A stretch of 64,000 nt of DNA, from positions 124,001 through 188,000 of the forward strand of contig NZ_FQUC01000001.1 in NCBI RefSeq assembly GCF_900128985.1. Direction: 5' to 3'. The position numbers and the translations under genes are program-made. Origin of the DNA: Indolivaga macrotermitis. Lineage in GTDB: Bacteria; Bacteroidota; Bacteroidia; Bacteroidales; Dysgonomonadaceae. Every line of letters begins with the position of its first letter. Position 1 is the stretch's first letter. Positions 4,181-53,416 of the stretch are shown here, piece by piece. The notes beneath the pieces were generated by a model that was given only the letters and a program-made list of their open reading frames with translations, was not told where the DNA came from and searched no databases.

Positions 4181-4352
4181 ATATAAAAGCGCAAAACCGG
4201 ATAATCGCTATTCTGAGTGCAACCGATACCTTTACAAGCAAAAGATATTTATTCAAACTAAAAGAAAAATAAATGAATAGAGAAAGAAAACCACAATAAC
4301 CGACTCTTACCTGAATAATTGCTTGAAGCCTGTTTCTTTTATTTGATTTTTA

Positions 4353-4360
4353 TAACTTTG
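4353..4360 (+). promoter_or_regulatory. -7 box immediately at AraC start (leaderless candidate)
   Basis: TAACTTTG ends only 4 bases before the ATG at 4365. The expected transcription start, about 7 bases after the box, would fall at or inside the start codon. Confidence 0.5.
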
Positions 4361-4364
4361 AAGT

Positions 4365-5261
4365 ATGAAGCATACCGAAAGTTTACAGGATTTTTATAAA
4401 ATGTCGGAAAATAAACATTTACTTTCCGGAGAGAATAAAATTATCAGGCACTTCAATATCTTTCCCCGCTGGAGATGTTCTGCTGCGAAAACTTATATTC
4501 GCCGCGATTTCTATAGGATTGTTTTAACTAAAGGGAGTGGAATTCTAAGCTTCCTGAACCATAAAGTCAGAATTGACGCACCCTCTATTTTTATAGCCAA
4601 TAAGATAATCCCTTATTCATGGGAACCTCTATCAGAGAATCAGGATGGTTGGGTATGTTTGTTCTCGAGTGAATTTTTGAATACAACCAATCCGGAGGTA
4701 TATCCGGTTCTTAATCTGGAAACTATACCGATTTATAATCTGGATAATATTTTACAGGAAGAATTTTCTGCTTTTTTCGAAAAGATCGAAGAAGATTTTA
4801 AGTCAGATTATATATATAAATATGCTTTGTTGCAGAACTACCTTAATTTACTTCTACACCGGATACAAATGTTAGGAGATCAGGTGTTCTCAACCAGTCA
4901 AATGATGGATGCCGCTCATCGTACGGTTTTTCGTTTCCTTGAACTATTGGAACAGCAATTTCCGGTACAATCTCCCGAAATGCCCTTGGATCTAAAAAGC
5001 CCTCAGGACTATGCACGGAAACTTAATATGCACGTCAATCATCTAAATAGTTCAGTAAAGAAGGTTACCGGGAATACTTCTTCCGGATTGATTACCGAAA
5101 GAATAGTAACAGAAGCCAGGAGCTTATTGCAGAATACAGATTGGAATATATCGGAAATATCGGATGCTTTGGGTTTTGAATATCCCTCCTATTTTACCAA
5201 TTTCTTAAAGAAGCATGCCGGAGCTTCGCCCAAAGAATTAAGATTGAGTTATATTCTTTGA
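4365..5261 (+). CDS. AraC-family transcriptional regulator
   Basis: A 298-residue protein with an N-terminal cupin-like sensor region (about 20-170, including GSGILSFLNHKVRIDAPSIF) and a C-terminal AraC DNA-binding domain: SPQDYARKLNMHVNHLNSSV is the first helix-turn-helix and ISEIADALGF-like sequence (as ISEISDALGFEYPSYFTNFL) the second. It lies 88 bases ahead of the aldo/keto reductase in the same direction and probably controls it. The start may be the ATG at 4365 on a leaderless message, or Met13 at 4401, because a -7 box ends at 4360. Confidence 0.9.
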   Translation: MKHTESLQDFYKMSENKHLLSGENKIIRHFNIFPRWRCSAAKTYIRRDFYRIVLTKGSGILSFLNHKVRIDAPSIFIANKIIPYSWEPLSENQDGWVCLFSSEFLNTTNPEVYPVLNLETIPIYNLDNILQEEFSAFFEKIEEDFKSDYIYKYALLQNYLNLLLHRIQMLGDQVFSTSQMMDAAHRTVFRFLELLEQQFPVQSPEMPLDLKSPQDYARKLNMHVNHLNSSVKKVTGNTSSGLITERIVTEARSLLQNTDWNISEISDALGFEYPSYFTNFLKKHAGASPKELRLSYIL

Positions 5262-5312
5262 ATTCTATAAGTATTGATTTGAATTGTATAGCTTGCTTCT
5301 TGCTATCTACTC

Positions 5313-5320
5313 TACTTTTG
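5313..5320 (+). promoter_or_regulatory. -7 box for aldo/keto reductase gene
   Basis: TACTTTTG lies 29 bases ahead of the ATG at 5350, with TTG triplets upstream. Confidence 0.5.
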
Positions 5321-5349
5321 TATCATAACTTCTAATAATTATAAGAGAT

Positions 5350-6333
5350 ATGAAATACAGAAAATTAGGTAACACCAACGAAGAATTATCGGCGATAGGA
5401 TTGGGTTGTATGGGAATGTCGCATGCCTATTCGGGGCAAGATGACAAAGAAAGTATAGCTACATTGCATAGAGCACTCGAATTAGGAGTGAATTTTTGGG
5501 ATACAGCTGATTTTTATGGAGGAGGCGAAAACGAGAAATTATTATCTAACGTACTTAAAAGTAAGCGAGATAAGGTATTTCTGGCTACTAAGTTCGGATT
5601 ACGTTACGAGCAAAGTAATTTATTGGCATCGGAAGTTGACGGCTCACCTGAATGGATGAGAAAAGCTGTTGATCTGAGTTTACAACGTTTGGGAGTTGAT
5701 TACATAGACCTCTACTATTTACATCGTGTAGATACTAAAGTGCCCATTGAAGAAACAGTAGGAGCTATGTCTGAACTGGTGAAAGAGGGAAAAGTCCGCT
5801 ATCTGGGACTTTCAGAGGCTTCGGCCGAATCAATAGAAAGAGCGGTCAAAGTACATCCGATAGCAGCTTTACAGAGTGAGTACTCGTTATTGAGCAGGGG
5901 CGTAGAGGATAAAATATATCCGCTGATCAGTAAATTAGGCATTTCTCTAGTGCCATATTCACCATTGGGTAGAGGGATGTTTACAGAGAATTTTGATATA
6001 GACTTGGAGGAAAATGACGCACGAAGGTCTTTGCCTCGTTTTCAGGGAGATCACTTTGTGAATAATAAACGAATGATGGCTGAATTAACTGAATTTGCAC
6101 ACAGTAAAAATATCAATACGGCTCAACTTGCATTAGCATGGCTTTTAGGAAAAGGTTCTGATATAATTCCTATTCCGGGTACGAAAAAACGGAAATACCT
6201 CGAATTAAATGTAAAAGCAGTAGATGCCCAACTTACAGAGAGTGATATTAAGGAGGTAGAAAATATTATAGCCAAATATCCGAATACAGGAGAGCGTTAT
6301 CCCGAATCGGCAATGAAGCTTGTTAATAAATAA
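5350..6333 (+). CDS. Aldo/keto reductase
   Basis: A 327-residue NADPH-dependent oxidoreductase of the AKR superfamily, similar to the YajO/Tas and AKR11-13 group. The active-site residues are visible: Asp and Tyr in [14 protein letters not shown] (about 49-62), Lys in VFLATKFG and His in LYYLHRVD. The C-terminal cofactor region has [15 protein letters not shown]. Such enzymes reduce aldehydes and ketones; the substrate is unknown. The AraC gene upstream is the likely regulator, an arrangement common for stress-induced AKRs. A strong terminator follows. Confidence 0.93.
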
Positions 6334-10296: not shown

Positions 10297-11772
10297 TTAT
10301 TTTTGATTTTTAGTGATAGGCTCAACTAAACTGTTCAGATATACTTCCAGATATGTATAACCTTCTTTGGTAAGATCAGTTGCATTCTTTCCCGGATAGT
10401 TCGCTTCGAGCCAACCGTCGGGAATACCATCCTGATTACTGTCAGTGGCGAAGGTACTGCTTCTTAAATCCGGCCACGCAGACCAATTTTTATTCTGAGG
10501 GTCAGGATTAAGGTCTGATTGAGAATCAATAATTCCTTTCCGTGGATAGTTCAGGCTTTTCCATACTCCGCCCTGACCATTGTACTTACTCTTCCCCGAG
10601 AATGGAGCAGTACCGTTAGTTGTTTCGTCGATTATACGTGTGTCTATATTATCACGAACCTTCGAACATCCGGCATACATCAAAACTTTTTCGTAAGCGG
10701 TATGAGCGGTATGTGTATAAACTTCTTTTACATTCAGAGGATTAGCTAATTTCAGTTCATTTTTGTCCTTATTATCGGCAGCACTTACTCCTAACCAGTT
10801 ATCGCCGGTTACTTCTTTGTTATGGGGCATCACATTTCCGGCTATGTAGAATTTTCCCCATACATCTTTTATACGCTCAAAACCTCCGGTTCCTTTATTG
10901 GTACTTATCGCTGTTATCCGGCTCGCGACTCTGTCACTTGTAGCAGGACCAGCTTTATAATAGTTATTCACGAGGTTTACGTGCATTGCTTCACCTCCGT
11001 AACAACCTTCGCCATTCCAGTTGTAAAAGACGTTGTTACGTACATCTGTAATGTCGTTTCCGGCATGTTTTGTTCCCGGGCCGAGGCGGGGAGTACGGCT
11101 ATCGTGGTGTGCGAGCAGGTTGTGGTGGAATGTTGCATTAACTCCTCCCCAGATAGCACCGTATCCGTGCGGTCCTTTTGAATGCCCTGACAAACGCAAA
11201 CTTTCCGAGATGATACACCATTGCATCGTGAAGTCTTCATTGTCATAGAACGAAGAGCATTCGTCAGTACTCCAGCTTATAGAACAATGGTCAATAATAA
11301 CATCCTTATTTTTCCTTCCGCTAAACGCATCAGCTCCGTCGGCTTTTTCCGGGGTAAGTTTAAGGTCTCCCATACGAAAACGCATATATCTGATTATGAC
11401 ATTATCTGCGGAGACAACAACCGGATAGTCTGCGATACATATTCCATCGCCCGGTGCCGATTGTCCTGCCACAGTTACATTGCCGCTCGCAATATGTAGA
11501 GGAGCGTTCAGCCTGATAGTTCCACTTGTCTTGAATAGGATAGTCCTTTTGCCGTCTTGATTTATACACCAGCGGAGCGAACCTTCATTTGTAGAAGCGT
11601 CTCCCGTATCATTGTCCTCGAGTGTATTTACATAGAATACCTTACCACCACGGCCTCCGGTAGTAAACATTCCTCCACCTTCTGCTCCCGGAAATGCAGG
11701 CGTTTGTGACATGCTTTTTTCAGATAGCAAGATTCCTGATAAAACTAATATTACAGCAATAATGTCTTTCAT
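10297..11772 (-). CDS. Secreted pectate lyase (PL1-like)
   Basis: A 491-residue protein with an N-terminal signal peptide (about 1-22) followed by AFPGAEGGG, the usual mature start of Bacteroidetes pectate-lyase-like proteins. A right-handed parallel beta-helix with pectate-lyase features follows: VIIRYMRFRMGD, VIIDHCSISWSTDE and the HDSRTPRLG region with an Arg expected in catalysis. The C-terminal DGIPDGWLEANYP tail is typical of these enzymes. It would cleave pectic polygalacturonate outside the cytoplasm. It stands alone, without SusC/SusD neighbours. Confidence 0.9.
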   Translation of the reverse strand: MKDIIAVILVLSGILLSEKSMSQTPAFPGAEGGGMFTTGGRGGKVFYVNTLEDNDTGDASTNEGSLRWCINQDGKRTILFKTSGTIRLNAPLHIASGNVTVAGQSAPGDGICIADYPVVVSADNVIIRYMRFRMGDLKLTPEKADGADAFSGRKNKDVIIDHCSISWSTDECSSFYDNEDFTMQWCIISESLRLSGHSKGPHGYGAIWGGVNATFHHNLLAHHDSRTPRLGPGTKHAGNDITDVRNNVFYNWNGEGCYGGEAMHVNLVNNYYKAGPATSDRVASRITAISTNKGTGGFERIKDVWGKFYIAGNVMPHNKEVTGDNWLGVSAADNKDKNELKLANPLNVKEVYTHTAHTAYEKVLMYAGCSKVRDNIDTRIIDETTNGTAPFSGKSKYNGQGGVWKSLNYPRKGIIDSQSDLNPDPQNKNWSAWPDLRSSTFATDSNQDGIPDGWLEANYPGKNATDLTKEGYTYLEVYLNSLVEPITKNQK

Positions 11773-33526: not shown

Positions 33527-33970
33527 ATGATTATGAAACGGGTTTTTCGAATTAATTCATTACACTGCCTTGTGGCGCTCATTTTATTGTTCGGTATAAT
33601 GTATATAGTCGAGAAGGTTACGCCAAGAGCCAGTGTTGAATCTATTAGTCAGACACGGTTAATGGAAGTGGATTTTCGGATGTTGAAGGATCGGACGCAT
33701 AATGGCATTTCGTATGTATTATTCTACGAAGAAGATTCGGACCGGTGTGTAAGGATGGCTGATAATCTGGATCGATTTTCGGAAGAACAAAAGGATACCC
33801 ATTTTTATTGTGTTAATATAGCAAAACACAGGCAAGAAAAGTTCCATTTAAGATCGCAAGTGCCTTATGTCGTGATATACAAAGATGGAAAGCCAATTCA
33901 GGAGGTAATGGGGATTGTCCCTGTCTCAAATTTAGAAATCATTCATAAAAGAGTAAACAGAAACAATTGA
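33527..33970 (+). CDS. Membrane-anchored thioredoxin-like protein without CxxC
   Basis: A 147-residue protein with one N-terminal hydrophobic segment (about 10-30) and a thioredoxin-like fold: YVLFYEEDSDRC as the first strand and active-site position, VNIAKHRQEKFHLRSQVPYVVIY with the conserved cis-Pro, then GKPIQEVMGIV. At the CxxC position it has SDRC, so only the second Cys is kept and disulfide exchange of the usual kind is not expected. It is 5 bases ahead of lpxC and probably co-transcribed with it. Confidence 0.75.
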   Translation: MIMKRVFRINSLHCLVALILLFGIMYIVEKVTPRASVESISQTRLMEVDFRMLKDRTHNGISYVLFYEEDSDRCVRMADNLDRFSEEQKDTHFYCVNIAKHRQEKFHLRSQVPYVVIYKDGKPIQEVMGIVPVSNLEIIHKRVNRNN

Positions 33971-33975
33971 ATTAT

Positions 33976-34965
33976 ATGACTACACTAATTAAGCAACAAA
34001 CATTAAAGAGTAGTTTTTCGCTCGAAGGTAAGGGATTGCATTCCGGTGTTCATACAAAAATAACATTCAGTCCGGCACCCGAAAATCACGGATATAAGAT
34101 TATGCGTACCGATTTGAAGGACACTCCGGTTATAGATGCTTTAGCAGAGAATGTAATAGATACCGAGAGGTGTACCGTTTTGGGTAGTAACGGAGTGCAG
34201 GTTGCTACTGTTGAGCATGCAATGGCGGCCTTATATGCCTGCGAAATTGATAATTGTCTGATCGAGATCGACTCGCCTGAATTTCCTATATTGGATGGAA
34301 GTGCGATTCAGTATATCAAACAGCTAAAAGAAGTTGGAACCCAGATACAAGATGCAGAAAGGATATACCTTGATTTTCCAAGAAAGAAATTTAAGATATC
34401 CGATCCTCAAACCGGAGCAAGTATGCAATTGATCCCATCTCAGGATTCGTATACCATCCAATGCGAGATTTCCTTTAATTCTCCATTGTTGAGGAAGCAG
34501 AGTGCCAGCCTCGAGAATCTACGGGAATTTGCCCGTGAAATAGCATCTGCCCGCACATTCGTATTTGTCAGGGAGATACAATATCTGCTTCAGAATGATC
34601 TGATCAAAGGAGGAGATCTGGATAATTCAATTGTGATTTATGATTCGGTCTTATCACAGGAAGAATATAACAAAATAGCCGATATTGTCGGAGTAGGTTA
34701 TCGTGATGCAGGTAAATTAGGCTATATAATGAACCGTCCCTTGTTATTCAGTAATGAACCGGCTCGACATAAGCTTCTGGATATAATGGGAGATCTGGCT
34801 TTAGCCGGAGGTTTTATTAAAGGACGTGTAGTAGCTAACCGTCCCGGACATAAAATCAATAACCAGCTAGCTCGTGCCATACGCGAATACTATATCGAAA
34901 GTATTAAAGACAAAGAGATGAAGAAACGGGATAAAAAGTATGCCATGACAGCATCTCCTGCTTGA
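33976..34965 (+). CDS. lpxC: UDP-3-O-acyl-N-acetylglucosamine deacetylase, stand-alone LpxC
   Basis: A 329-residue zinc deacetylase, the committed step of lipid A synthesis. The zinc and catalytic residues are visible: VEHAMAAL (Glu80, His81), ARHKLLDIMGDLAL (His265, Asp269) and PGHKIN (His292). It ends soon after the LpxC fold, while the main Bacteroidetes enzyme is an LpxC-FabZ fusion. This is therefore probably an additional, single-domain copy or a lineage variant. The ATG at 33976 follows the upstream stop by 5 bases. Confidence 0.9.
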   Translation: MTTLIKQQTLKSSFSLEGKGLHSGVHTKITFSPAPENHGYKIMRTDLKDTPVIDALAENVIDTERCTVLGSNGVQVATVEHAMAALYACEIDNCLIEIDSPEFPILDGSAIQYIKQLKEVGTQIQDAERIYLDFPRKKFKISDPQTGASMQLIPSQDSYTIQCEISFNSPLLRKQSASLENLREFAREIASARTFVFVREIQYLLQNDLIKGGDLDNSIVIYDSVLSQEEYNKIADIVGVGYRDAGKLGYIMNRPLLFSNEPARHKLLDIMGDLALAGGFIKGRVVANRPGHKINNQLARAIREYYIESIKDKEMKKRDKKYAMTASPA

Positions 34966-35014
34966 ATGCTATAGAGTTAATGAAATTGGAAGATATAGAG
35001 AAATATCAGGTATA

Positions 35015-35221
35015 ATGAAAAAACTACTTTTATTTTTACACATAAATTCAAAAATCCTAACAGGCTTTATTGTAGGCGGTTTCTTAGGATATCTACACTG
35101 GTTTTATTTTGGATGTTATTGGGGTAATTATCTCCTCTCAGCCGAGTGCTGGGTCAATTGTGCCGTAGGTGCAATCTTTGGAGGCTTTGTTGCCAGCTTG
35201 TTCAATATAGATAGCATCTGA
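35015..35221 (+). CDS. Small two-helix membrane protein (DUF6132-like)
   Basis: A 68-residue protein with two hydrophobic helices (about 14-32 and 45-62) linked by a Cys-containing loop (FGCYWGNYLLSAEC). The arrangement, glycine-rich first helix then a short loop with Cys and a second helix ending in a short tail, resembles the DUF6132 family. Function is unknown. It is followed by a clear terminator. Confidence 0.65.
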   Translation: MKKLLLFLHINSKILTGFIVGGFLGYLHWFYFGCYWGNYLLSAECWVNCAVGAIFGGFVASLFNIDSI

Positions 35222-35255
35222 CCGGTTTATTTATGCTAAGATACCGTAATAGAAG

Positions 35256-35286
35256 ATAGCCAGCTGTGAAGCTGGCTATTTTTTTA
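35256..35286 (+). terminator. Terminator between small membrane protein and flxA
   Basis: ATAGCCAGC/GCTGGCTAT forms a 9-bp stem with a 6-base loop, followed by a T-run. It lies in a convergent gap and may also end the leftward flx-hdr transcript. Confidence 0.8.
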
Positions 35287-35288
35287 TA

Positions 35289-36125
35289 TCAATATTCGGC
35301 AGGTAATGCTTCCAACTGGACTCTCGAGAATACCGGCCCGTCTTTACATACATACTGGCTGCCTACATTGCATCGGCCACACTTGCCGACGCCACATTTC
35401 ATCCGGTTTTCTAGTGTAGTGTATATGTTTTCGGGTTGAAAACCAAGCTTATCCAAAACAGGAAAAGTGAATTTGATCATCACCGGAGGTCCGCAAACTA
35501 TTGCAATTGTATTTTTGGGCGAAGGATTCATTTTTTCTAGAACACTCGGTACAAAGCCTATTTCCCCCTTCCAGTCAGGAGTTTCGCCTCCCGGATCGAC
35601 TGTGGTGACAAGGTTTACATCCGAACGCTCTTCCCACTCCTTTAGTTCGTGTTTATATACTAAGTCTGCAACTGATTTAGCTCCATAAAGGATGCTGATA
35701 TTGTTGAAATTTTCCCGCGTGTCCAATACATTCCATATAACGCACCGCATTGGTGGAAGCGCTATACCTCCTGCAATGAAAACAAGGTTCTTGCCTTTCC
35801 ACTCATCCAAAGGAAATGTATTGCCGAATGGTCCCCTGAAACCCATGGTCTGACCCTCTTCTAATTTGGCGAGAGCCGAAGTAACCTTCCCAGCTTCCCG
35901 GAAAGTACATTCGATATATCCTTTGCGGGTAGGAGAGGAGGCGATACAGAAAGTACATTCTCCTTCACCAAATGCCGAATACTCGCCGAACTGTCCGGCT
36001 TTGAATTCGAAGTTTTTAGCTGTTTCTTCGTCCTTGAATTTTAGGCGGAATGTTTTCACTCCCGGAGCTTCCTGAGTGATCTTTTCGATCGTTACCAGAT
36101 GAGGTAAATATATATTGTCATTCAT
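35289..36125 (-). CDS. FlxA-type FAD/NAD(P)-binding electron-input subunit
   Basis: A 278-residue ferredoxin-reductase-like protein: an FAD-binding barrel (about 5-100, with GQFGEYSAFG), an NAD(P)-binding domain (from NLVFIAGGIALPPMRC) and a C-terminal iron-sulfur site of four Cys (244, 249, 252, 260) as in dihydroorotate dehydrogenase electron-transfer subunits. In FlxABCD-HdrABC systems FlxA takes electrons from NAD(P)H. It is last in the leftward cluster, 16 bases after the dicluster subunit. Assignment rests on domain type and on the full hdr/flx neighbourhood. Confidence 0.85.
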   Translation of the reverse strand: MNDNIYLPHLVTIEKITQEAPGVKTFRLKFKDEETAKNFEFKAGQFGEYSAFGEGECTFCIASSPTRKGYIECTFREAGKVTSALAKLEEGQTMGFRGPFGNTFPLDEWKGKNLVFIAGGIALPPMRCVIWNVLDTRENFNNISILYGAKSVADLVYKHELKEWEERSDVNLVTTVDPGGETPDWKGEIGFVPSVLEKMNPSPKNTIAIVCGPPVMIKFTFPVLDKLGFQPENIYTTLENRMKCGVGKCGRCNVGSQYVCKDGPVFSRVQLEALPAEY

Positions 36126-36141
36126 CGTTTTATCTTTTTAA

Positions 36142-37149
36142 TTATAACTCAGCTATTCCCGTAAGGTGTTCCGACAGGTTCATGTCTACCGGACAGGCTC
36201 TCGAACAGCGTCCACAACCCGTACACCCTCTGACCGACAATCGTTCGGGCATATACGAGAATTTATGCAGAAGGCGCTGGCGCCAGCGTTGACTCTGGAT
36301 TTCGCGTGGATTGTGTCCCGAAGTATGTATTGTGAAAAGAGAGAATCCGCACGAATCCCAACAACGCAGGCGGTTGCCCGAATTACCTTTTGTATCTTCC
36401 TGTATGTCGAAACAGGCACAGGTGGGGCATACAAATGCGCAGGCTCCACAACCGATACAACGCTCCGATTGTTGTTTCCATACTTCACTCTCGAACATAT
36501 GGGATATTTTGGTATTAAGTTCTTCCAGATTGAATTTAACCGGAAGCTTAGCCAAAAAGTCATCTTTATTGATATTGGGGTCTGCTCCGAACAGATCAAT
36601 ATATTTATCTACAAGGTTTTTACCTTTTTCGGTGACAATCTCTACAAGGTAACCATCCGTAATTGGAGTCAGCAGTATATCGCTGCCTTCGGTATTACCG
36701 GGACTACCATTTACTGAGGTGCAGAAACAGTAGTCGTCGCATTGAGTACAACTCATCGAAATGAGAGTAGTACGGTCTATATGCGCATTGAAAGGCTTGT
36801 CTTTTGTATCCCAGTTGAATATTCCCGACAGAGGGCGGAATCCTGCAGCGTCGCATGGATGGATACCGAACACAACGGTATAAGGAACACTTTCTGCGTC
36901 GAAATCTGTAAGTTGTACATCTCCCTTGTTTTTCTCGAATGAGAATAGTTTCTCGGTGCGGGGAAATGCAACAGCCTTAGCCGATTGAGTCGTTTGTATA
37001 TGGTCGAGGCTGATCTCGTCAGCAGAAGTAATATATTTAAAATCGGTTTTATCGCCTTTGGAAACGGGAGCGAAAATTCTTTGTCCATCGTTACCCATTT
37101 TATTTAACCAGACTTTCAGAGAGTCTTGCGATATATGTTTTTTTTCCAT
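36142..37149 (-). CDS. 4Fe-4S dicluster subunit (FlxB/FlxC or sulfhydrogenase-beta-like)
   Basis: A 335-residue protein. The N-terminal 200 residues resemble the beta subunit of sulfhydrogenases and AsrA, with FGIHPCDAAG and a Cys group CTQCDDYCFC (134-143). Two ferredoxin-type 4Fe-4S motifs follow: Cys231-234-237-241 and Cys309-312-315-319. It would pass electrons from the FAD subunit toward the Hdr core in the cytoplasm. It is 5 bases after the next ferredoxin-like gene. Which of FlxB and FlxC it represents cannot be fixed here. Confidence 0.82.
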   Translation of the reverse strand: MEKKHISQDSLKVWLNKMGNDGQRIFAPVSKGDKTDFKYITSADEISLDHIQTTQSAKAVAFPRTEKLFSFEKNKGDVQLTDFDAESVPYTVVFGIHPCDAAGFRPLSGIFNWDTKDKPFNAHIDRTTLISMSCTQCDDYCFCTSVNGSPGNTEGSDILLTPITDGYLVEIVTEKGKNLVDKYIDLFGADPNINKDDFLAKLPVKFNLEELNTKISHMFESEVWKQQSERCIGCGACAFVCPTCACFDIQEDTKGNSGNRLRCWDSCGFSLFTIHTSGHNPREIQSQRWRQRLLHKFSYMPERLSVRGCTGCGRCSRACPVDMNLSEHLTGIAEL

Positions 37150-37154
37150 AAGGC

Positions 37155-37943
37155 TTACAATATAAAGGATTCTTGGTCTTCGGGTTTGAATGTAGACAAC
37201 ACATTGCCACGCTCGTCATCTCCTCCGAAATTTGCTAAAACAGATTCTTTCATCTTATGGGTAAGCAGGTGGATAGGTATTCCCAACGGACATGCTGTAC
37301 CACACGATCCGCAGTCGGAACAACGTCCTGCCATATGCATCACCCGGTTTATTTGCCATTCCATGTTGCCCAATGTACTAGCCCATGGCTGTATCCATTG
37401 GGGACGGTTTACTTCCACTATACATTTGGTACAGTAACACATAGGGCATGCAGCCCGGCAGGCATAGCATTTGAAGCATTTAGAAAGCTCATCTGTCCAA
37501 AACTCCCAGCGTTCGGCAGGAGACATTGCGTTGATCTTACTGACCAGCTCGTCATCTTCCGGTTTAGCCGGAGGAGGAGTCTCCTTCAGATATGCTTTTA
37601 TTTGTTCCTGACCTTCAAATACAGAAAGGTTACCGTCTGAGCCAATCCCGATGATTGTCAGAAGGTCTTTATTCAGTTGGTTTTCGTTGAACAGTTGCGA
37701 TATACTTTTCAGGGCATAATATGAAGCCGATATTCCGACACGCTTACCTCTTACCAAATCTTTGCGGGTAAGGTAAACAGCGAGATTTCCCTGACATCTG
37801 TCGTCAAATACCAGCTTGGTGGCATCTGTTGCATTTTTGGCAAAGAACGGACGCGGACGGCGCGAACCTTCTTCATAACCGATGAACAGGTCGATAGCCT
37901 CTTTGTCGAAAAGCTCTTTTACTTTGTTTATAAGTTCACTCAT
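37155..37943 (-). CDS. 4Fe-4S ferredoxin-like subunit (FlxC/FlxB type)
   Basis: A 262-residue protein. The N-terminal region (about 1-140) is related to F420-hydrogenase-beta-like domains. Two iron-sulfur motifs follow: a Cys-rich CFKCYACRAACPMCYC (156-171) and Cys208-211-214-218 ending CPLGIP. It is a likely electron relay in the Flx module. Its start overlaps the FlxD stop by 4 bases, indicating translational coupling and equal synthesis. Confidence 0.82.
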   Translation of the reverse strand: MSELINKVKELFDKEAIDLFIGYEEGSRRPRPFFAKNATDATKLVFDDRCQGNLAVYLTRKDLVRGKRVGISASYYALKSISQLFNENQLNKDLLTIIGIGSDGNLSVFEGQEQIKAYLKETPPPAKPEDDELVSKINAMSPAERWEFWTDELSKCFKCYACRAACPMCYCTKCIVEVNRPQWIQPWASTLGNMEWQINRVMHMAGRCSDCGSCGTACPLGIPIHLLTHKMKESVLANFGGDDERGNVLSTFKPEDQESFIL

Positions 37944-38416
37944 TGCGGCACCTCCATTTCTTTGGCTAGTTCGACTTCGTTCTCTGCTAAAAAGCTGGCG
38001 GCTTTGCGGTATTCGGTATAAGGACCCATTTCCCGGATAGTGCTAACAGTGTCATTTACTATGTCCGCCCATTTAGCCCCTTCAGCAGCAGATACCCATG
38101 CAAACCGGATACGGTTGACATCTATTCCCATAAAGTCGAGCAGACTGCGGAAGAGAATCCAACGGCGGCGGGCATGAAAGTTACCCGATGTATAATGACA
38201 ATCGTTCGGATGGCAACCCGATACGATAATACCATCGGAGCCATTGGCAAAAGCTTTCAACAGCAGCATAAAATCAATCCGTCCCGTACAAGGAAACCGA
38301 ACAATCTTCACATTCGAAGCATATTTGATACGGCTCGTGCCTGTGAGGTCTGCTCCGGCGTAAGTACACCAATTGCAGACAAAAGCGACTATTTTAGGTT
38401 CAAATTCGTTATTCAT
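37940..38416 (-). CDS. MvhD/FlxD-type [2Fe-2S] subunit
   Basis: A 158-residue protein with the MvhD/FlxD signature: CNWCTYAGAD (Cys14, Cys17), RFPCTGRID (Cys43) and SGCHPNDCHY (Cys68, Cys73), then FHARRRWILFRSLLDFMGI. MvhD docks on HdrA and passes electrons into the bifurcating flavin. It is separated from hdrA by 398 bases but is tightly packed with the following flx genes, which share its direction. Confidence 0.93.
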   Translation of the reverse strand: MNNEFEPKIVAFVCNWCTYAGADLTGTSRIKYASNVKIVRFPCTGRIDFMLLLKAFANGSDGIIVSGCHPNDCHYTSGNFHARRRWILFRSLLDFMGIDVNRIRFAWVSAAEGAKWADIVNDTVSTIREMGPYTEYRKAASFLAENEVELAKEMEVPQ

Positions 38417-38814
38417 AGAATTTTAGTTTTTCTTCATAATAAAGGTGACACTGGGTTACAAAAAAGTAACAAACGTTACAAATAAGGTGTCACGAAAGTG
38501 ACACTGTTACCTCTTTTGTTACCTTGTCAATTAATTGATTATAAATGTATAATGCTCTGTAAAGTGACAAAAGTGACAAGTTTTATACTATTTTATTTTC
38601 TGATTTAATTTGCCTTGTATTAATCAAGTACTATTAAACCGTGTTTTCAGGTACGCTATGTAGGAGCAGATAAGTTTTTCTGATTAAAGTAGGTGAAAAT
38701 CTGCCCCTACATAAAATACCCTATCATATCAATTAAAATAAAACTTCGAAAAATAAAAAAGATCTCTTTCGGGAAACACATCCCATATATAGATAAATTA
38801 CGGACAGTAAGTTT
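38417..38814. other. 398-bp structured spacer inside the hdr-flx cluster
   Basis: This is the gap between the hdrA stop and the flxD start. It contains a GTGAC-rich element (38444-38580) and a 15-bp near-perfect inverted repeat at 38657-38671/38699-38713 (TATGTAGGAGCAGAT and its complement, one mismatch). No credible gene was found. Confidence 0.7.
38444..38580. repeat. GTGAC/GTTAC-rich element, copy B
   Basis: A run of GTGACA, GTTACA and GTAACA words in both orientations, including two perfect mini-hairpins: GTAAC-AAAC-GTTAC (38466-38479) and GTGTCAC-GAAA-GTGACAC (38487-38504, GNRA-type loop). It ends in tandem GTGACAAAAGTGACA. Its overall order matches the minus strand of 10051-10177. Confidence 0.6.
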
Positions 38815-40815
38815 TTAGTCGGCAAGTACTGCCATAACTTCGGCGTACATCTGTTCGTTAGAAAATCCTTGTATATCGATTGATTTCGAACGGCAGAATG
38901 AAACACAGGTTCCGCAACCCTGACAAAGTCCGGGATTGACACGGGCAACTGTTTTGATAACTTCACCCTGACGGTTTTTGATCTCTTCGTGTTCAATAGC
39001 CTGATAAGGGCAAGCAGTTTCGCACATGAAACACCCTACGCAGGTCGACACATCATGAGAAGGAATACGATTTACAACCGCTATGATAGGTTCACGGGTC
39101 AGCTCGTCATTCGAGAATAAACCGATAACCTTAGCTGCTGCTCCCGAAGCTGTACTTACCGTATCGGGAATGTCTTTGGGAGCCTGACAAGCACCACACA
39201 GGTATATTCCGGCAGTATTAGTTTCAACGGGTTTTAGTTTAGGATGAGCTTCGGCAAAGAACTTATAAGGGTCGTATGATACGTGCATTTTTTGCGCCAG
39301 TTCTTCTGCTCCGCAATTAGATACTCCGGCTGATGCCAGCACTACCATATCTGCTTCAATCTCTACGGGTTTAGCTCCCATGAGGGTATCAACGCCGCGT
39401 ACAATCAGTTTGCCGTCTTTTTCGTAAACACGGGCAACACGTCCGCGTATATAATTTGCTCCGTCGTCTTCGATGGCGCGGCGTACAAACTCTTCGTAGT
39501 TTTTACCACCGGCACGGATGTCCATGTAAAATACGTACGATTCGCCTTCGTGTACCTTATGCTGATAGAGCATAGCATGCTTAGCAGTGTACATACAGCA
39601 TATTTTAGAGCAGTAAGGAATTCCTTTTGCCGGATCACGTGAACCTGCACAGGCAATAAATACTACTTTCTGCGGAATCTTACCATCCGACGGGCGGCGT
39701 ATCTCGCCCAGAGTAGGGCCCGATGCCGATGCCAGACGCTCGAACTGCAATCCGGTAATCACATCAGGGTATTTACCGTAACCGTATTCAGGGAAGAAAT
39801 CGGGTTTCAGTACATCGAAACCTGTTGCCAGAACAATAGCCCCTATATCTTCGGTGATCAGTTCATCGGGTTTATCGAATGCGATGGCTCCTGTAGGACA
39901 TACTTTTTCGCAAACCTTACACTTACCATTCAGGTAATAGTTACAATTCGCCTTGTCTATGACCGGCTTATTGGGTACAGCCTGAGGGAATGGTGTATAT
40001 ATAGCAGTACGCATGCCTAATCCGGCATTGAATTCGCTCGGAATTTTTTTCTTCGGACACTTACTCCAGCAGATACCGCAACCTGTACAGGTCTTGGGGT
40101 CTACACTTTTTGCTTTCAGGCGGATAGTGGCTTTGAAATTTCCGATAGAACCGTCCAGACTTTCCAGTTCGGCATAATTATATAAGGTGATGTTGGGATG
40201 CTGAGCTACTTCCACCATTCGAGGTGTAAGGATACATTGCGAGCAGTCGAGGGTAGGGAAGGTCTCCGACAATTGAGACATATGCCCTCCGATAGACGGT
40301 TCACGTTCTATCAGTATTACCTGTTTCCCTGCATTGGCAATATCCAGACTGGCTTGTATACCGGCAATCCCTCCGCCTATAACCAGTGCTTTTTTGGTGA
40401 TGGGCACTTTAATCGCATTAAGAGGCTTGTCGAGTTTGGTTTTGGCAACAAGCATCTTAACGAGGTCGATAGCCTTTTCGGTTGTAGTATCGCTCTTGTC
40501 ATGTACCCACGAACAGTGTTCGCGCAGATTCGACATTTCGCACATATAAGGGTTCAGTCCGGCTTCGGCACACGCCTTACGGAAAGTAGGTTCGTGCATC
40601 CGCGGAGAACAGGCACCGATAACAACACCTGTAAGTCCTTTTTCTTTGATGGCCTCTTTGATCATCGTTTGTCCCGGATCGGAACACATATATTTGTAGT
40701 CGGTGGCAAATTCTACCCCTTCTATGTTAGCAGCTTCTTGTGCGACTTTTTTGCAGTCGACTGTTGCGCTGATATTTTCGCCGCAATGGCAAATAAAAAC
40801 TCCTATTTTTGACAT
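38815..40815 (-). CDS. hdrA: HdrA-type flavin-binding, electron-bifurcating subunit
   Basis: A 666-residue protein with the full HdrA layout: an N-terminal domain (1-135), an FAD motif at 147-152 (GGGIAG), a conserved LDCSQCILTPRM (Cys190, Cys193), two ferredoxin motifs (Cys243-246-249-253 and Cys291-299-302-306), thioredoxin-reductase-like segments, and two more 4Fe-4S motifs at the C-terminus (Cys592-595-598-602 and Cys631-634-637-641). HdrA splits electron pairs between a high-potential acceptor (HdrBC side) and a low-potential one (ferredoxin). It is cytoplasmic and 19 bases after hdrB. Confidence 0.95.
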   Translation of the reverse strand: MSKIGVFICHCGENISATVDCKKVAQEAANIEGVEFATDYKYMCSDPGQTMIKEAIKEKGLTGVVIGACSPRMHEPTFRKACAEAGLNPYMCEMSNLREHCSWVHDKSDTTTEKAIDLVKMLVAKTKLDKPLNAIKVPITKKALVIGGGIAGIQASLDIANAGKQVILIEREPSIGGHMSQLSETFPTLDCSQCILTPRMVEVAQHPNITLYNYAELESLDGSIGNFKATIRLKAKSVDPKTCTGCGICWSKCPKKKIPSEFNAGLGMRTAIYTPFPQAVPNKPVIDKANCNYYLNGKCKVCEKVCPTGAIAFDKPDELITEDIGAIVLATGFDVLKPDFFPEYGYGKYPDVITGLQFERLASASGPTLGEIRRPSDGKIPQKVVFIACAGSRDPAKGIPYCSKICCMYTAKHAMLYQHKVHEGESYVFYMDIRAGGKNYEEFVRRAIEDDGANYIRGRVARVYEKDGKLIVRGVDTLMGAKPVEIEADMVVLASAGVSNCGAEELAQKMHVSYDPYKFFAEAHPKLKPVETNTAGIYLCGACQAPKDIPDTVSTASGAAAKVIGLFSNDELTREPIIAVVNRIPSHDVSTCVGCFMCETACPYQAIEHEEIKNRQGEVIKTVARVNPGLCQGCGTCVSFCRSKSIDIQGFSNEQMYAEVMAVLAD

Positions 40816-40834
40816 AATCTAAGTCTTTTATAGC

Positions 40835-41680
40835 TTATGCAAAGCTGGGTGCGACAAATAGTTTCTTAAGTCCCAATGTATCCCTGTCTAATCCGACAGC
40901 CAGTCCGATAGCCTGAGTAATATACAATACAGGCGTTTCGATTTTAGTTTGCAGGTAGCTGTTGATGTGTGGGCGGCGCATATCCAGATTTGATTGGCAC
41001 ATAGGGCAGGCTACAATGATAGCTTCTGCTCCCCGGTCGCTCGCATCCTTTACTATCCGTCCCGAAAGTTTGGCTACGATATCGGTTCGTGATACAGAGA
41101 ATCCGGCTCCGCAACATTCGGTTTTATATCCCCAATCCATAGAAGTAGCACCTATTTTGCGCATCAGGTCGTCCATTGATTGAGGGTCTTCCAGACGGTC
41201 GAATTGCAGGATGTCATGAGGGCGAACCAACAGGCATCCGTAGTAACACACTACTTTATGCTCGAATGGTTTGGTTACTTTGTCGGTTATCTTATCCGAA
41301 ATGTATTTCAAGATAAACTGCATTACATTCAGTATTTGTACTTTGCCTTCGATAGGCATTTGCAGTATTTCCGCAACACGGGCTTTCAGTTCCGGGTTTT
41401 TATTTATCTCATGTTGAGCTACCGTCAGGCGGTTGTAGCAGGCGGCGCAAGGCACTACTATTTCAGTAAGTCCTTGTTTTTCGGCTAAAGCCAGTATACG
41501 GGCAGGCAATGCTGTTGCCAGTTCATGATTGATATTATGGGCTGCTGTGGCTCCGCAGCAATTCCAGTCTTCGATTTCAACCAGATTTATATCGAAAGCT
41601 TTAGCTAGTGCCAGTGTCGATTGTGCATATTCAGAAGAAGTACCTTTCAGGGAACATCCCGGATAGAATCCTATTTCCAT
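40835..41680 (-). CDS. hdrB: HdrB-type noncubane iron-sulfur catalytic subunit
   Basis: A 281-residue protein with two CCG domains: Cys9, Cys41-Cys42, Cys78-Cys81, and Cys145, Cys149, Cys189-Cys190, Cys225-Cys228. These bind the noncubane 4Fe-4S clusters that reduce a disulfide in heterodisulfide reductases. The complete set of Cys argues for an active disulfide or related two-electron site. In bacteria the natural substrate of this subunit is often unknown. It lies between hdrC and hdrA. Confidence 0.94.
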   Translation of the reverse strand: MEIGFYPGCSLKGTSSEYAQSTLALAKAFDINLVEIEDWNCCGATAAHNINHELATALPARILALAEKQGLTEIVVPCAACYNRLTVAQHEINKNPELKARVAEILQMPIEGKVQILNVMQFILKYISDKITDKVTKPFEHKVVCYYGCLLVRPHDILQFDRLEDPQSMDDLMRKIGATSMDWGYKTECCGAGFSVSRTDIVAKLSGRIVKDASDRGAEAIIVACPMCQSNLDMRRPHINSYLQTKIETPVLYITQAIGLAVGLDRDTLGLKKLFVAPSFA

Positions 41681-41766
41681 AATTTTTACAAGTTGATCGT
41701 TTCTGCAATGAGCAGTTATATGTTTTTAAGTACAGATATCATTTACAGATAATCCGCAGGGCATAT

Positions 41767-42324
41767 TTATTTCGGACCGGAATGAACTTCGCCGGTCTTT
41801 GAAAAAATGTTCGATATTTGTTTTTTGTCTTTTACGACTTCGGGTAATATGGGCAATTTGCCTTTCATAAACATTCCGGGCGCTACATTCATATCCTGAA
41901 GAAGTTTCAGGCTGCGGACTTTATATCCTGCTACAAGCCCTATCTCGTAGAGCCGTCCGGTATATCGTACCGAGTCGAGAAATGCACGGTGGAAAGAGAG
42001 TATGTTTTTCGATTTTTTATTGACACTATTCTGTTCAAGGGATTTTTCGCGCATATAGTCCATCAGTGAAGGAATATCTATTTGCATCGGACAACGGGTC
42101 AGGCAGTTCTGACAGGATACACATAACCAGATAGATTCGGATTTCAATACCGATTGGTAATTGTCTTCATCATTGGTCTGCAACATGCGCATTACCATAC
42201 TGGGAGGATAGTCCATATCTTCGGCTACAGCGCATCCGGCTGAGCATTTACCACATTGGTAACACCGGTTGACATTTACTCCGGTTTTTCCCTTGATAGT
42301 TGTTATATAGCCTTGTTTTTCCAT
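41767..42324 (-). CDS. hdrC: HdrC-type 4Fe-4S subunit
   Basis: A 185-residue protein with two cubane 4Fe-4S motifs: Cys21-24-27-31 and Cys68-71-74-78 (CVSCQNCLTRCPMQIDIP). It links HdrA to HdrB. There is no membrane segment of the kind found in HdrE-dependent systems, so the complex should be soluble. It is the first gene of the leftward cluster; a perfect palindrome lies 24 bases upstream of its start. Confidence 0.93.
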   Translation of the reverse strand: MEKQGYITTIKGKTGVNVNRCYQCGKCSAGCAVAEDMDYPPSMVMRMLQTNDEDNYQSVLKSESIWLCVSCQNCLTRCPMQIDIPSLMDYMREKSLEQNSVNKKSKNILSFHRAFLDSVRYTGRLYEIGLVAGYKVRSLKLLQDMNVAPGMFMKGKLPILPEVVKDKKQISNIFSKTGEVHSGPK

Positions 42325-42626
42325 GACAATAGTTAGATCTTCTTCATTTAAGGTAACCTTAATATATCAAGAAATGTAAATCTTGAATTTCAAAATATAT
42401 CTATTTTGTCATGTAAAAGTAGCAAAATGAATATTTATAAATGTAAATAATAAGCTAAAAAAGCCTATATGAGCTTATATTTATAATGATTCTAAATAAA
42501 ATAGCATATATCTATCTCTATATAAATGGAATATATCAAGCAATAGCAAGTATTTAATAATGTATTTTCATGGTATAACTAACTATTGTTGTTTTACTTA
42601 CCAAAGTAATAAATAGGTCTGAGACC
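42325..42626. other. 302-bp AT-rich region upstream of hdrC
   Basis: No gene was found. It contains a TTAAGGT-A-ACCTTAA palindrome at 42348-42362 and a TCAAG-N10-CTTGA repeat at 42367-42386. No exact -7 consensus was found for hdrC. Confidence 0.6.
42348..42362. promoter_or_regulatory. Palindrome upstream of hdrC, possible operator
   Basis: TTAAGGTAACCTTAA is perfectly symmetric around one central base and lies 24 bases from the hdrC start codon, in a position to block or restrict transcription or translation. Confidence 0.4.
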
Positions 42627-43739
42627 TCAGTTGGTTTTTTTATAGCTCAAGATAGCCCAGATGTTACATACAATAGCGAAACCGATGGTTGCAAATAGCT
42701 GAGGCAGAATGTCGAACAGTCCGCTACCTTTGATAAATATGAGCCGAATAACTTCGATAAAATAACGGATAGGATTAATAAGTGTCAGCATTTGTGCCCA
42801 TTGCGGCATACTGCTGATAGGTGTGAGCATTCCGCTCAATAGTACAAATATCAGCATGAAGAAGAAGGCGATCAGCATCGCTTGCTGCTGTGTTTCGGAA
42901 TAATTGGAGATAATCAGCCCGATACCGCTGAATGCCAGCAGATAGAAAAATGAGAAGAAATAGATAATAAGAATATTTCCCGCGGGGATCAACCCGTACA
43001 TCAGCCACGAAGCAATCAATCCGATGGTGAGCATCACATATCCGATTATCCAGAAAGGTATCAGTTTACTCAGAATAAATGTAGCTTTGCCGATAGGTGT
43101 TACGTTAATTTGTTCCATTGTACCTTTCTCTTTCTCGCGGACTATATTTAAGGCAGATAGCATTCCCCCGATAATGGTTATAAGCAGTACTAATATGGCA
43201 GGTACCATAAATATCCGGTAATTCATTTCGGGATTATAACGAAAATAGGTAGATACCTCAATATTATTGGTCAGGCTCGAACTTTGCCCTGTACTGCTGA
43301 TAATATCCCGGTTAAAGTCGGTAATAATTTGTGAAATATAATTGCTGCCCAACGAAGCCTTCTGTCCGTTAATCGCATTTACGGATAGCATCAGTCCAGA
43401 GGATTGTTCCTTTATCAGGTCATTTTCAAAATTCCGGGGTATTTCCAGAATCAGGTCGGCTGTATTTTGTTCTATGGAGATCATTGCCTCCTCGTACGAA
43501 TCAGAATAATCAGTAAGTTTGAAATATCCGCTCGATATGGCTTTTTCGATCAGTTGTTTTGATAGGGTACTCTTGTCATTATCAATAACACTAAGCGAAA
43601 TATTGCGTTGCTCGAACGTGGCTGCCCACGGAAATATCAATAGTTGTATAAGCGGCATCATCAGGATAATACGCAGCATGGTTTTATCCCTGAATATTTG
43701 GAGAAACTCTTTTTGGAGTAAGAATTTTAATGTTCTCAT
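42627..43739 (-). CDS. ABC-2 type transporter permease (YbhS/YbhR-like), last gene
   Basis: A 370-residue permease: one N-terminal membrane helix (about 20-40), a large periplasmic domain (about 45-170) and five C-terminal helices including the ABC-2 signature IVREKEKGTMEQINVTPIG. Paired with the similar 43741-44844 permease it would form the heteromeric channel of a YbhGFSR-type exporter. It is the last gene of the leftward operon; the two permease genes are one base apart. Confidence 0.92.
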   Translation of the reverse strand: MRTLKFLLQKEFLQIFRDKTMLRIILMMPLIQLLIFPWAATFEQRNISLSVIDNDKSTLSKQLIEKAISSGYFKLTDYSDSYEEAMISIEQNTADLILEIPRNFENDLIKEQSSGLMLSVNAINGQKASLGSNYISQIITDFNRDIISSTGQSSSLTNNIEVSTYFRYNPEMNYRIFMVPAILVLLITIIGGMLSALNIVREKEKGTMEQINVTPIGKATFILSKLIPFWIIGYVMLTIGLIASWLMYGLIPAGNILIIYFFSFFYLLAFSGIGLIISNYSETQQQAMLIAFFFMLIFVLLSGMLTPISSMPQWAQMLTLINPIRYFIEVIRLIFIKGSGLFDILPQLFATIGFAIVCNIWAILSYKKTN

Positions 43740-51536: not shown

Positions 51537-51625
51537 ACAAATGATTAAAACAAGAATTTAATTATTTGTTGGAAATTTTATTGCTACTGTAACAAATGAT
51601 ACAAATTTGAGGTATCCGGAGTATC

Positions 51626-51633
51626 TATTTTTG
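51626..51633 (+). promoter_or_regulatory. -7 box for DUF438 gene
   Basis: TATTTTTG lies 30 bases ahead of the ATG at 51664 and inside the longer open frame, which supports the shorter protein. Confidence 0.5.
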
Positions 51634-51663
51634 TTATATACAAAATATAATACCTTATCACTT

Positions 51664-52896
51664 ATGAGTGAACTAATTAATAATTCAGCAAAACGGAAAG
51701 AACTTCTCAAACATCTTATCTTACAGCTACATTCGGGCGAAGCTCCTGATGTAGTAAGAAAGAGATTGGAAGAGTATCTAAGAACCGTACCTTATAATGA
51801 AGTAGTAGAAGTAGAACAAGAACTTATATCCGAAGGTTTACCTGAGGAGGAAGTGTTACGCTTTTGTGATATTCACACAGCAGTTTTAGACGGGCGTATC
51901 GAGCAAACTCACGCAAAACCTGTACCTGCAGGGCATCCTGTGGATACATTCAAAAAAGAGAATAGAGAGCTGGAAAAAGTGATTACACAAGTACGGGCTC
52001 TGTTTGAAAAAGTACCGGGCTTAGAGGCTTCCGAGGTTAAAGGTTTTCTGTTGAAACTAAAAGCTTTGTATAATGCCCTCTCGGATGTGGACAAGCATTA
52101 CCGCCGAAAAGAATACCTGTTATTCCCATTTCTGGAGAAACACGGGATAACAGGCCCTCCCAAAGTAATGTGGGGAAAACATGACGAAACAAGGGAGTTG
52201 TTGAAAGCCGCACATGAAGTACTCGATATACAAGAGGAAATTTCCGTTCAGGATTTATGTACGGTTATCGTATATACACTAGAGCCTGTACTGGCTTCGC
52301 TGGAAGGTATGATAATGAAAGAAGAAGAAATTCTTTTACCTATGTGCATGGATACACTGACCGATATAGAGTGGTACCAGATATACCAACAGACACTCGA
52401 ATTTGGTTTTTGCCTTTATGATCCGCAGTACAAGTGGCAGCCCGAAGATATTCAAGTTGGTGAGGTTTCGTATTCCGGAAACGGAAATGTACAACTGCCC
52501 ACCGGTAGTTTTTCGATAGACGAATTGACAGCCTTTTTCAACCTTTTACCAATGGATATTACATTTGTAGACAAGGATGATAGAGTGAAGTTCTTCTCTT
52601 TGGGGCCACACCGGATATTTGACCGTAACAGGGCTATTATTGGTCGCAGTGTTCAGCTGTGCCATCCTCCCGGAAGCGTACATGTTGTAGAACAGATATT
52701 GAATGACTTTAAAAGTGGAAAGGAATCGAGAGCTGCATTCTGGATCAATTTCAAAGGACAGTTTATATATATCGAGTATATTGCTATGAGAGGAGAGAAC
52801 GGCGAATATCTGGGAGTTGTAGAATGTACCCAGGATCTGACTGCTTTACGAAAACTGGAAGGCGAACAGCGTTTACTCTCATATTCGTCACACTGA
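51664..52896 (+). CDS. DUF438 / hemerythrin / PAS protein
   Basis: A 410-residue protein in three parts: an N-terminal DUF438 domain (about 8-75, KELLKHLILQLHSGEAPDVV), a hemerythrin-like helical domain with the di-iron ligand pattern HYRRKEYLLFPFLEKHG, WGKHDETRELL and EEEILLPMC (about 120-225), and a C-terminal PAS domain (about 285-400, ITFVDKDDRVKFFSLGPHRI). Such proteins are thought to sense or handle oxygen, NO or iron in anaerobes. The DUF1858 gene starts 1 base after the stop, and a cupin gene follows. Confidence 0.9.
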   Translation: MSELINNSAKRKELLKHLILQLHSGEAPDVVRKRLEEYLRTVPYNEVVEVEQELISEGLPEEEVLRFCDIHTAVLDGRIEQTHAKPVPAGHPVDTFKKENRELEKVITQVRALFEKVPGLEASEVKGFLLKLKALYNALSDVDKHYRRKEYLLFPFLEKHGITGPPKVMWGKHDETRELLKAAHEVLDIQEEISVQDLCTVIVYTLEPVLASLEGMIMKEEEILLPMCMDTLTDIEWYQIYQQTLEFGFCLYDPQYKWQPEDIQVGEVSYSGNGNVQLPTGSFSIDELTAFFNLLPMDITFVDKDDRVKFFSLGPHRIFDRNRAIIGRSVQLCHPPGSVHVVEQILNDFKSGKESRAAFWINFKGQFIYIEYIAMRGENGEYLGVVECTQDLTALRKLEGEQRLLSYSSH

Positions 52897-52897
52897 T

Positions 52898-53416
52898 ATG
52901 GAAAAGCCGGATATAACACTGCAAACTAAGGTTGGAGAGATTCTGCAATACTATCCCGAACTCGAAGATGTACTGTTGAGTATGTCTCCTGCTTTTGCCA
53001 AGTTGAAAAATCCGATCCTCAGGAGGACAGTGGCTAAAGTAGCGTCTTTAAAACAAGTCGCTGAAGTAGGTGGTATTGATGCAGGATTCCTGATTTCTAC
53101 TTTACGTAAGGCTGCAAACCTTATGCCTGCTACCACGGATACAGATGGCGCAGATTTGCTTACTCAGCCAGAACCGGACTGGATAAATATTCAGGGAGTA
53201 ACAGATGTTATGGATGTATGTTCTGTAATAGAGCAGGGAAGAAGCCCTATGAACCAGATATTATCCCGGGCGGCACAGTTAGAAAATCAACAGGTGCTGA
53301 AACTGATAACACCGTTTGTCCCGGTTCCGATCATAGATATACTGAAAAACAAAGGTTATAAATGCTGGAGTAAACAGAATGAACTTTTAGTCGAAACATA
53401 TATATTAAGGTCTTAG
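52898..53416 (+). CDS. DUF1858/DUF2249-type protein
   Basis: A 172-residue protein. Residues 8-75 (TKVGEILQYYPELEDVLLSM, then ASLKQVAEVGGIDAGFLISTL) match DUF1858, the small helical domain found at the N-terminus of ScdA/RIC iron-sulfur repair proteins. The C-terminal half (DVCSVIEQGRSPMNQILSRA, then LKLITPFVPVPIIDILKNKG) matches DUF2249. It is in an operon with the hemerythrin-PAS gene and fits a role in redox or nitrosative stress. Confidence 0.86.
   Translation: MEKPDITLQTKVGEILQYYPELEDVLLSMSPAFAKLKNPILRRTVAKVASLKQVAEVGGIDAGFLISTLRKAANLMPATTDTDGADLLTQPEPDWINIQGVTDVMDVCSVIEQGRSPMNQILSRAAQLENQQVLKLITPFVPVPIIDILKNKGYKCWSKQNELLVETYILRS

Follow-up and report, generated by a model that had tools for sequence, protein, structure and literature searches.

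A seven-gene hdrCBA-flxDCBA cluster for a presumed NAD(P)H-linked heterodisulfide-reductase-type complex in Indolivaga macrotermitis and other Bacteroidales

Subunits of the cluster compared with described complexes

The closest described systems to the locus considered here are the FlxABCD-HdrABC complexes (Hdr-Flox; Hdr, heterodisulfide reductase) of Desulfovibrio vulgaris and Bilophila wadsworthia. We analysed a 64,000-nt stretch of the Indolivaga macrotermitis genome (the window, which lies on contig C20 of a 4.66-Mb assembly), in which seven intact open reading frames (ORFs) on the minus strand, at 42324-35289, encode the same subunit set and read hdrC-hdrB-hdrA-flxD-flxC-flxB-flxA; all of them start with ATG and none has an internal stop. 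Statements cited by PMC identifier refer to excerpts of those sources. The Bilophila genes are likewise printed as hdrCBA-flxDCBA (WCP94_001527-1532; PMC12125255). For D. vulgaris the tags run from flxA (DVU2399) to hdrC (DVU2404), with adh1 at DVU2405 and the strand not given in the excerpt, and FlxCD is listed as one 54.1-kDa protein (PMC10920352), whereas FlxC and FlxD are separate in the window. Unlike the Desulfovibrio type, the window has no adh among its scanned neighbours and its genome has no DsrC.

The methanogen complexes HdrABC-MvhAGD and Fdh/Elp-HdrABC (5odc, 7bkb, 8rvu) share with our locus the HdrABC core, the MvhD homologue and an FdhB-like subunit, but the input of the window is an NAD(P)H-type module and not a hydrogenase or a formate dehydrogenase. 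The heterodisulfide of coenzymes M and B (CoM-S-S-CoB) is not expected in this host. On plasmid pILYOP01 of Ilyobacter polytropus (plasmid search, 1 record) the same gene set is found with hdr before flx, but hdrB and hdrC are swapped (hdrB-hdrC-hdrA-flxD-flxC-flxB-flxA; hdrC, flxB and flxA assigned by product names and position) and FlxC is only 27.5% identical. FlxB and FlxA are also homologous to the beta and gamma subunits of sulfhydrogenase I (9nez), which we take to be that of Pyrococcus; in the cluster there are no hydrogenase subunits and the two proteins would be coupled to Hdr instead.

We consider it probable that the seven genes encode a FlxABCD-HdrABC complex that is NAD(P)H-linked and presumably bifurcating, by which ferredoxin and a disulfide are both reduced, the ferredoxin being passed on to Rnf and/or to a headless complex I. 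A preliminary description of the window had proposed this identity, which is supported by profile, sequence and fold, and had claimed all subunits with full cluster ligands, as borne out by the seven intact ORFs and by the cysteines kept among Bacteroidales homologues. For each subunit, cysteine conservation was counted in those homologues whose alignment covers 85% of the length or more.

HdrA matched the HdrA2 profile with 754.6 bits and its residues 3-663 align to methanogen HdrA (5odc_A, E 7e-203); C389, C402, C406 and C407, as well as the cysteines of the ferredoxin domains, are kept in 49-50 of 50 homologues. In HdrB, Pfam found two CCG stretches, the sequence matched 8rvv_B (E 1.4e-35), all 11 cysteines are kept in 48 of 48 homologues, and the AlphaFold 2 model (mean predicted local distance difference test, pLDDT, 81.8) resembles 8rvy_B of a solved Hdr complex (E 2e-19, template modelling (TM) score 0.87). 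HdrC matched 9sfi_E (1.9e-10) and 5odc_C (2.1e-10) in a comparison with the sequences of solved structures, with 8/8 cysteines kept in 47/47 homologues.

On the Flx side, FlxD carries FlpD (PF02662, 163.5 bits), matches 7bkb_F (E 1.6e-47) and has its five cysteines kept in all 42 homologues. FlxB has a Fer4_22 domain, and its nearest solved structure is the beta subunit of sulfhydrogenase 1 (9nez_B, E 5.6e-48); for FlxA, with domains NAD_binding_1, FAD_binding_6 and DHODB_Fe-S, it is the gamma subunit (9nez_C, E 4.7e-68), and the [2Fe-2S] cysteines 244, 249, 252 and 260 are kept in 38-39 of 39 homologues. FlxC gave only weak Pfam matches; its C-terminal part resembles FdhB in sequence (7bkb_E, E 1.4e-17), and 11 of its 12 cysteines are kept in 43/43 homologues. 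The FlxC model has a mean pLDDT of 71.8, with the first 140 residues mostly at 80-97, and its best fold matches are 8rvu_E of the Elp-Hdr complex (8.2e-8; TM on query 0.56) and 7bkb_E, FdhB of the Fdh-Hdr complex (1.3e-7; 0.61). Both matches come from solved Hdr complexes, so that the most likely role of FlxC is that of the expected adaptor, which would dock the NAD(P)H module (FlxAB) on FlxD/HdrA.

Gene order and distribution in Bacteroidales

Gene order was compared in the window and 51 related loci (52 in all; here loci are numbered with L and genomes with G), many of them from fragmented assemblies. The order was kept in all the 50 loci holding at least two cluster genes, and 37 of the 52 hold all seven. 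A contig end truncates seven of the 15 incomplete loci (L063, L076, L079, L081, L084, L092, L098); L097 has no called flxD and its flxA is in two pieces, flxA is not in place in L034 and L099, hdrA stands alone in L064 and L083, and hdrCBA is without adjacent flx in L087, L089 and L101. Since the identical order recurs in other genomes, the cluster is not an assembly artefact. The preliminary description had presented it as the exact reverse of flxABCD-hdrABC, which is right relative to that name but not as a distinctive trait: hdr also comes before flx in the printed Bilophila cluster, in Ilyobacter and in the Bacteroidales loci, and the name merely lists subunits. Hence we rejected the order as an oddity.

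Some loci showed further particularities. L083 has a 24%-identical FlxA-like paralogue, which was excluded from the counts. A gene of the RmuC family by Pfam is inserted between hdrB and hdrA in L016 (2174-3532), and in L083 an ORF of about that length (4279-5631) lies ahead of the solitary hdrA, the likeness being judged by eye. The gap between hdrA and flxD varies by species: it is 398 bp in the window, 522 bp in Dysgonomonas capnocytophagoides (L013, 9007-9528), 41 bp in L014 and 50 bp in L017. The palindrome GTAACN4GTTAC occurs in it once in the window (0.04 expected) and twice in D. capnocytophagoides, and L020 and L021 have small ORFs within it.

At the order level, 49 of 393 Bacteroidales genomes, from 38 of 206 genera, have an HdrA with E ≤ 1e-140, with an identity of at least 57% in 44 of these genomes and of 44-47% in the other five. 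In the latter group, G050 has an 801-aa HdrA-type protein of different build. Another of the five, G048 of the same order, has at L025 (11210-17613) hdrCBA-mvhD and then the genes for the small and large subunits of a [NiFe] hydrogenase, so that a comparable Hdr core is combined there with another input module. The class survey gave HdrA in 4 of 395 genomes, the one of the window included. Within the family, HdrA of 87-100% identity was present in 7 of the 37 genomes searched (a looser tally of 45/61, taken at E ≤ 0.001, contains numerous weak partial matches), and within the genus in five of six, the miss being a genome 62% complete. The word unusual, applied to this machine by the preliminary description, is hence too strong within Bacteroidales, even if the gene is infrequent in the class-wide sample.

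The HdrA tree comprises the 52 Bacteroidales rows of the set plus Ilyobacter and two more rows from Bacteroidales; of its 52 inner branches 19 are open, and the tree has long branches, which were flagged. The eight loci labelled Dysgonomonadaceae group together on it, and L083 also falls within this group. The hdrCBA-flxDCB block has stayed together in two reduced genomes belonging to a single genus, G334 (1.2 Mb) and G759 (1.0 Mb) (L034, L080, L099); in G334 flxA is intact and lies about 120 kb away. Retention in genomes of 1.0-1.2 Mb suggests that these genes are worth keeping under strong gene loss. According to the title of Ramos et al. 2015, the FlxABCD-HdrABC complex is reportedly widespread in anaerobic bacteria, so that its occurrence in Bacteroidales may already be in print; the literature excerpts found contain no description of the cluster in Dysgonomonas or of its link with headless complex I.

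Electron route, acceptor and headless complex I

If the seven proteins form the proposed complex, NAD(P)H would be oxidised at the flavin adenine dinucleotide (FAD) of FlxA, and the electrons would pass from the FlxA [2Fe-2S] cluster, through the FlxB and FlxC clusters and then the FlxD [2Fe-2S] cluster, to the FAD of HdrA. Bifurcation would take place there, one stream reaching ferredoxin by way of the HdrA ferredoxin domains and the other passing via HdrC to HdrB, whose CCG clusters would reduce a disulfide. The ferredoxin so reduced would in turn power Rnf, the headless complex I (the one without NuoEFG), or both.

The high-potential acceptor of HdrB had been called unknown in the preliminary description, and our search agrees with it: DsrC (PF04358) was found in none of the 11 carrier genomes searched, the one of the window included (one carrier is 70% complete), while the E. 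coli control matched. With no DsrC found, we expect a different protein disulfide or a small-molecule one as the acceptor; the conserved flanking genes of related loci include no obvious candidate. DsrC is the acceptor that has been proposed for Desulfovibrio, and in D. vulgaris it is said to interact directly with FlxABCD-HdrABC (title of Ferreira et al. 2023). DsrC does not define the wider family, since its absence is also stated for Syntrophomonas BUT1 (PMC6687939). Sulfite reductase, predicted to be the acceptor's partner in Deferribacterota (PMC12887300), was considered as a further candidate.

As for ferredoxin sinks, RnfC was over the cut-off in eight of the 11 carriers, the window's genome included (not in G334, G042 and G053), and an [FeFe] hydrogenase was found in two (G042 and G053). 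NifH was over the cut-off in three (G004, G230, G334) and not in the window's genome, and nitrogenase was hence not adopted as a general sink. For a Dysgonomonas from a cockroach, transcription of an uptake hydrogenase has been reported (PMC10266427).

The same complex might also run mainly in reverse (confurcation), with reduced ferredoxin and a dithiol reducing NAD+ and thereby balancing fermentation, which we regard as unlikely, though a serious possibility. Sugar fermentation yields reduced ferredoxin, and the window's genome has no [FeFe] hydrogenase as a sink for it; both points count for this direction. Rnf, on the other hand, makes NADH from reduced ferredoxin with an energy gain, and the presence of RnfC in most carriers tells against reverse running, as does the fact that no source of the dithiol reductant is known. 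Reversibility itself has been proposed for the fermentation of D. vulgaris (PMC10920352).

A possible link with complex I was found in some loci. All the 18 genomes searched have a NuoD match, so that the presence of complex I alone is uninformative; NuoF (E ≤ 1e-20) was found in 14 of them and was absent in G018, G230, G334 and G759. The nuo regions of G334 and G759 gave no NuoF match, and the G334 stretch has no called nuoL-N ORF. The window's genome has two complex-I sets, precisely a NuoF-containing one on contig C5 (L117) and a headless one on contig C44 (L116), with nuoA, B, CD, H, I, J, K, L, M and a nuoN-like gene. In other genomes nuoA is the first co-directional gene after flxA (L074, L086, L097), the second, with one gene between (L096), or the first after hdrA (L089, L101). 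In L089 ten proteins were identified, nuoA-B-C-D-H-I-J-K-L-M with no E, F or G; L074, L086, L096 and L097 start A-B-C-D-H-I-J with nothing between D and H (nuoH is in two pieces in L097). Altogether, hdr(-flx) is followed by a same-strand NuoEFG-less operon in six of the 43 loci with 700 bp or more of downstream flank. These six do not form one clade on the HdrA tree and require three changes, at least two of them forced by starred branches, against a mean of 5.4 in shuffles, 6 of 500 being as low as three; the linkage therefore either goes back to an old origin followed by losses or has several origins. This adjacency suggests, without being proof, that headless complex I receives the low-potential product of Hdr. 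NuoEFG-less complex I is described in Bacteroidota for Prevotella (PMC6560451), and reduced ferredoxin has been suggested as its donor in Melioribacter (PMC3534657).

Two explanations build on this linkage. The first is a tentative idea, which we think improbable as a whole: Flx-Hdr of Bacteroidales would be the electron supplier, direct or via ferredoxin, of an 11-subunit NuoEFG-less complex I, so that NADH oxidation is split between the proton-pumping headless complex and a DsrC-independent disulfide, and HdrABC would replace the NADH-dehydrogenase head where hdrCBA abuts nuoA without flx. The second, which appears to us quite unlikely, makes HdrABC the electron-input or partner module of headless complex I, with menaquinone as the final acceptor, in which case HdrB need not reduce a free disulfide. 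It could explain why hdrCBA lies directly 5' of nuoABCDHIJKLM in L089 and of nuoA, B and D in L101, with no flx between, and why hdr-flx precedes nuo in L074, L086, L096 and L097, in loci that are not one clade. However, only 6 of the 43 loci with enough flank show the arrangement, the genes are unlinked in Dysgonomonas, adjacency may mean shared regulation only, and the flx-free hdrCBA were judged at the locus level only; moreover, HdrB keeps all its CCG ligands, which suggests catalysis.

Several points weigh against the bifurcating FlxABCD-HdrABC complex that we prefer. Some of the nearest named FlxA relatives are NADPH-dependent, so that NADH is not assured as the donor. The FlxC model is weak at residues 169-191 (pLDDT under 50), and its fold matches have a root-mean-square deviation of about 11 Å over the whole alignment (both domains); therefore the parts of the fold match and their arrangement is not reproduced. 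The 398-bp gap, with its terminator-like hairpin, could uncouple hdr and flx expression. The Hdr and Flx halves are separable, since hdr is without adjacent flx in 5/52 loci (those with hdrA or hdrCBA alone), and in the window's own genome the cluster and complex I are unlinked. Finally, the literature excerpts found report no biochemistry for a Bacteroidales member. That FlxABC and HdrABC are separate enzymes merely sharing an operon, as those five loci and the gap between the two halves might indicate, is nevertheless very unlikely, given that both sequence and fold relate FlxD and FlxC to subunits of solved Hdr complexes and that the gene order is otherwise kept.

Two questions can now be put to the test in culturable gut-type anaerobes: what HdrB reduces without DsrC, a gap stated in print for Syntrophomonas (excerpt of PMC6687939), and what the electron donor of the Bacteroidota NuoEFG-less complex I is. 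We think three things worth following: the acceptor without DsrC, the persistence of the genes in reduced genomes, and the linkage with headless complex I.

Coordinates and neighbourhood

The features of the cluster are collected in Table 1. From hdrC to flxA the intergenic spacings are 86, 19, 398, -4, 5 and 16 bp, flxD and flxC overlapping by 4 bp. The G+C content per 2-kb window is 0.42-0.45 in the cluster and 0.36-0.435 elsewhere. Terminator-like sites, a class only mildly above chance, numbered 11 in 8 kb against 7.4 ± 2.8 expected. The sigma-70 scan gave 18 sites against 18.7 expected with a model that does not cover Bacteroidota promoters, and the Rfam search over 34000-43500 gave no matches.

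Table 1. Positions of the cluster features in the window
Feature	Position	Strand	Description
hdrC	41767..42324	-	185 aa; two CX2CX2CX3C [4Fe-4S] motifs; bridge between HdrA and HdrB
hdrB	40835..41680	-	281 aa; two CCG domains; presumably the active-site subunit, with non-cubane [4Fe-4S]
hdrA	38815..40815	-	666 aa; FAD protein, ferredoxin domains inserted and at the C-terminus; flavin presumed to bifurcate
hdrA-flxD gap	38417..38814		398 bp; hairpins and GTAACN4GTTAC palindrome at 38466-38479
flxD / mvhD	37940..38416	-	158 aa; [2Fe-2S] link into HdrA
flxC	37155..37943	-	262 aa; FdhB-like presumed docking subunit, two [4Fe-4S] motifs
flxB	36142..37149	-	335 aa; sulfhydrogenase-beta-like Fe-S subunit
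flxA	35289..36125	-	278 aa; FAD/NAD(P) ferredoxin-reductase-like, C-terminal [2Fe-2S]
Terminator-like hairpin 3' of flxA	35256..35279	-	10-bp stem; consensus match only

The Bacteroidales-like host named in the preliminary description agrees with the FlxC relatives, which are mostly from Dysgonomonas, the genus in which the host was placed. Its remark that no DsrC, alcohol dehydrogenase or hydrogenase is nearby agrees with the scan of the neighbourhood: none was found among the 28 other window proteins that were scanned with Pfam (the remaining ORFs of the window were unscanned), and neither these nor the seven cluster genes include the [NiFe] hydrogenase MvhAG. Its placing of the cluster next to a pectate lyase and other polysaccharide genes did not hold. 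The Pectate_lyase_4 match (E 6.7e-6) is at 10297-11772, 23.5 kb from flxA, and among seven Dysgonomonadaceae loci (L013-L017, L020, L021) only L013 of D. capnocytophagoides shares the window's neighbours. The link with polysaccharide degradation was rejected on both grounds.

In related loci, exbB/exbD/exbD/tonB-like genes lie upstream on the same strand in 7-8 cases (L069, L070, L071, L075, L076, L077, L078, L090), accompanied by a TPR-like and a PstS-like protein, all these names having been given by eye and not by profile. A gene of 344-345 aa adjoins the cluster in L065, L068, L069, L081 and L096, and the L065 copy matches the dihydroorotate dehydrogenase family. In the window itself there is a free-standing LpxC gene (33967-34965, 332 aa); LpxC of Bacteroidota is usually fused to FabZ, and this one may be a second copy. 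On the other side of the cluster, at 51607-53416, a DUF438/hemerythrin/PAS protein is followed by a DUF1858/DUF2249 protein.

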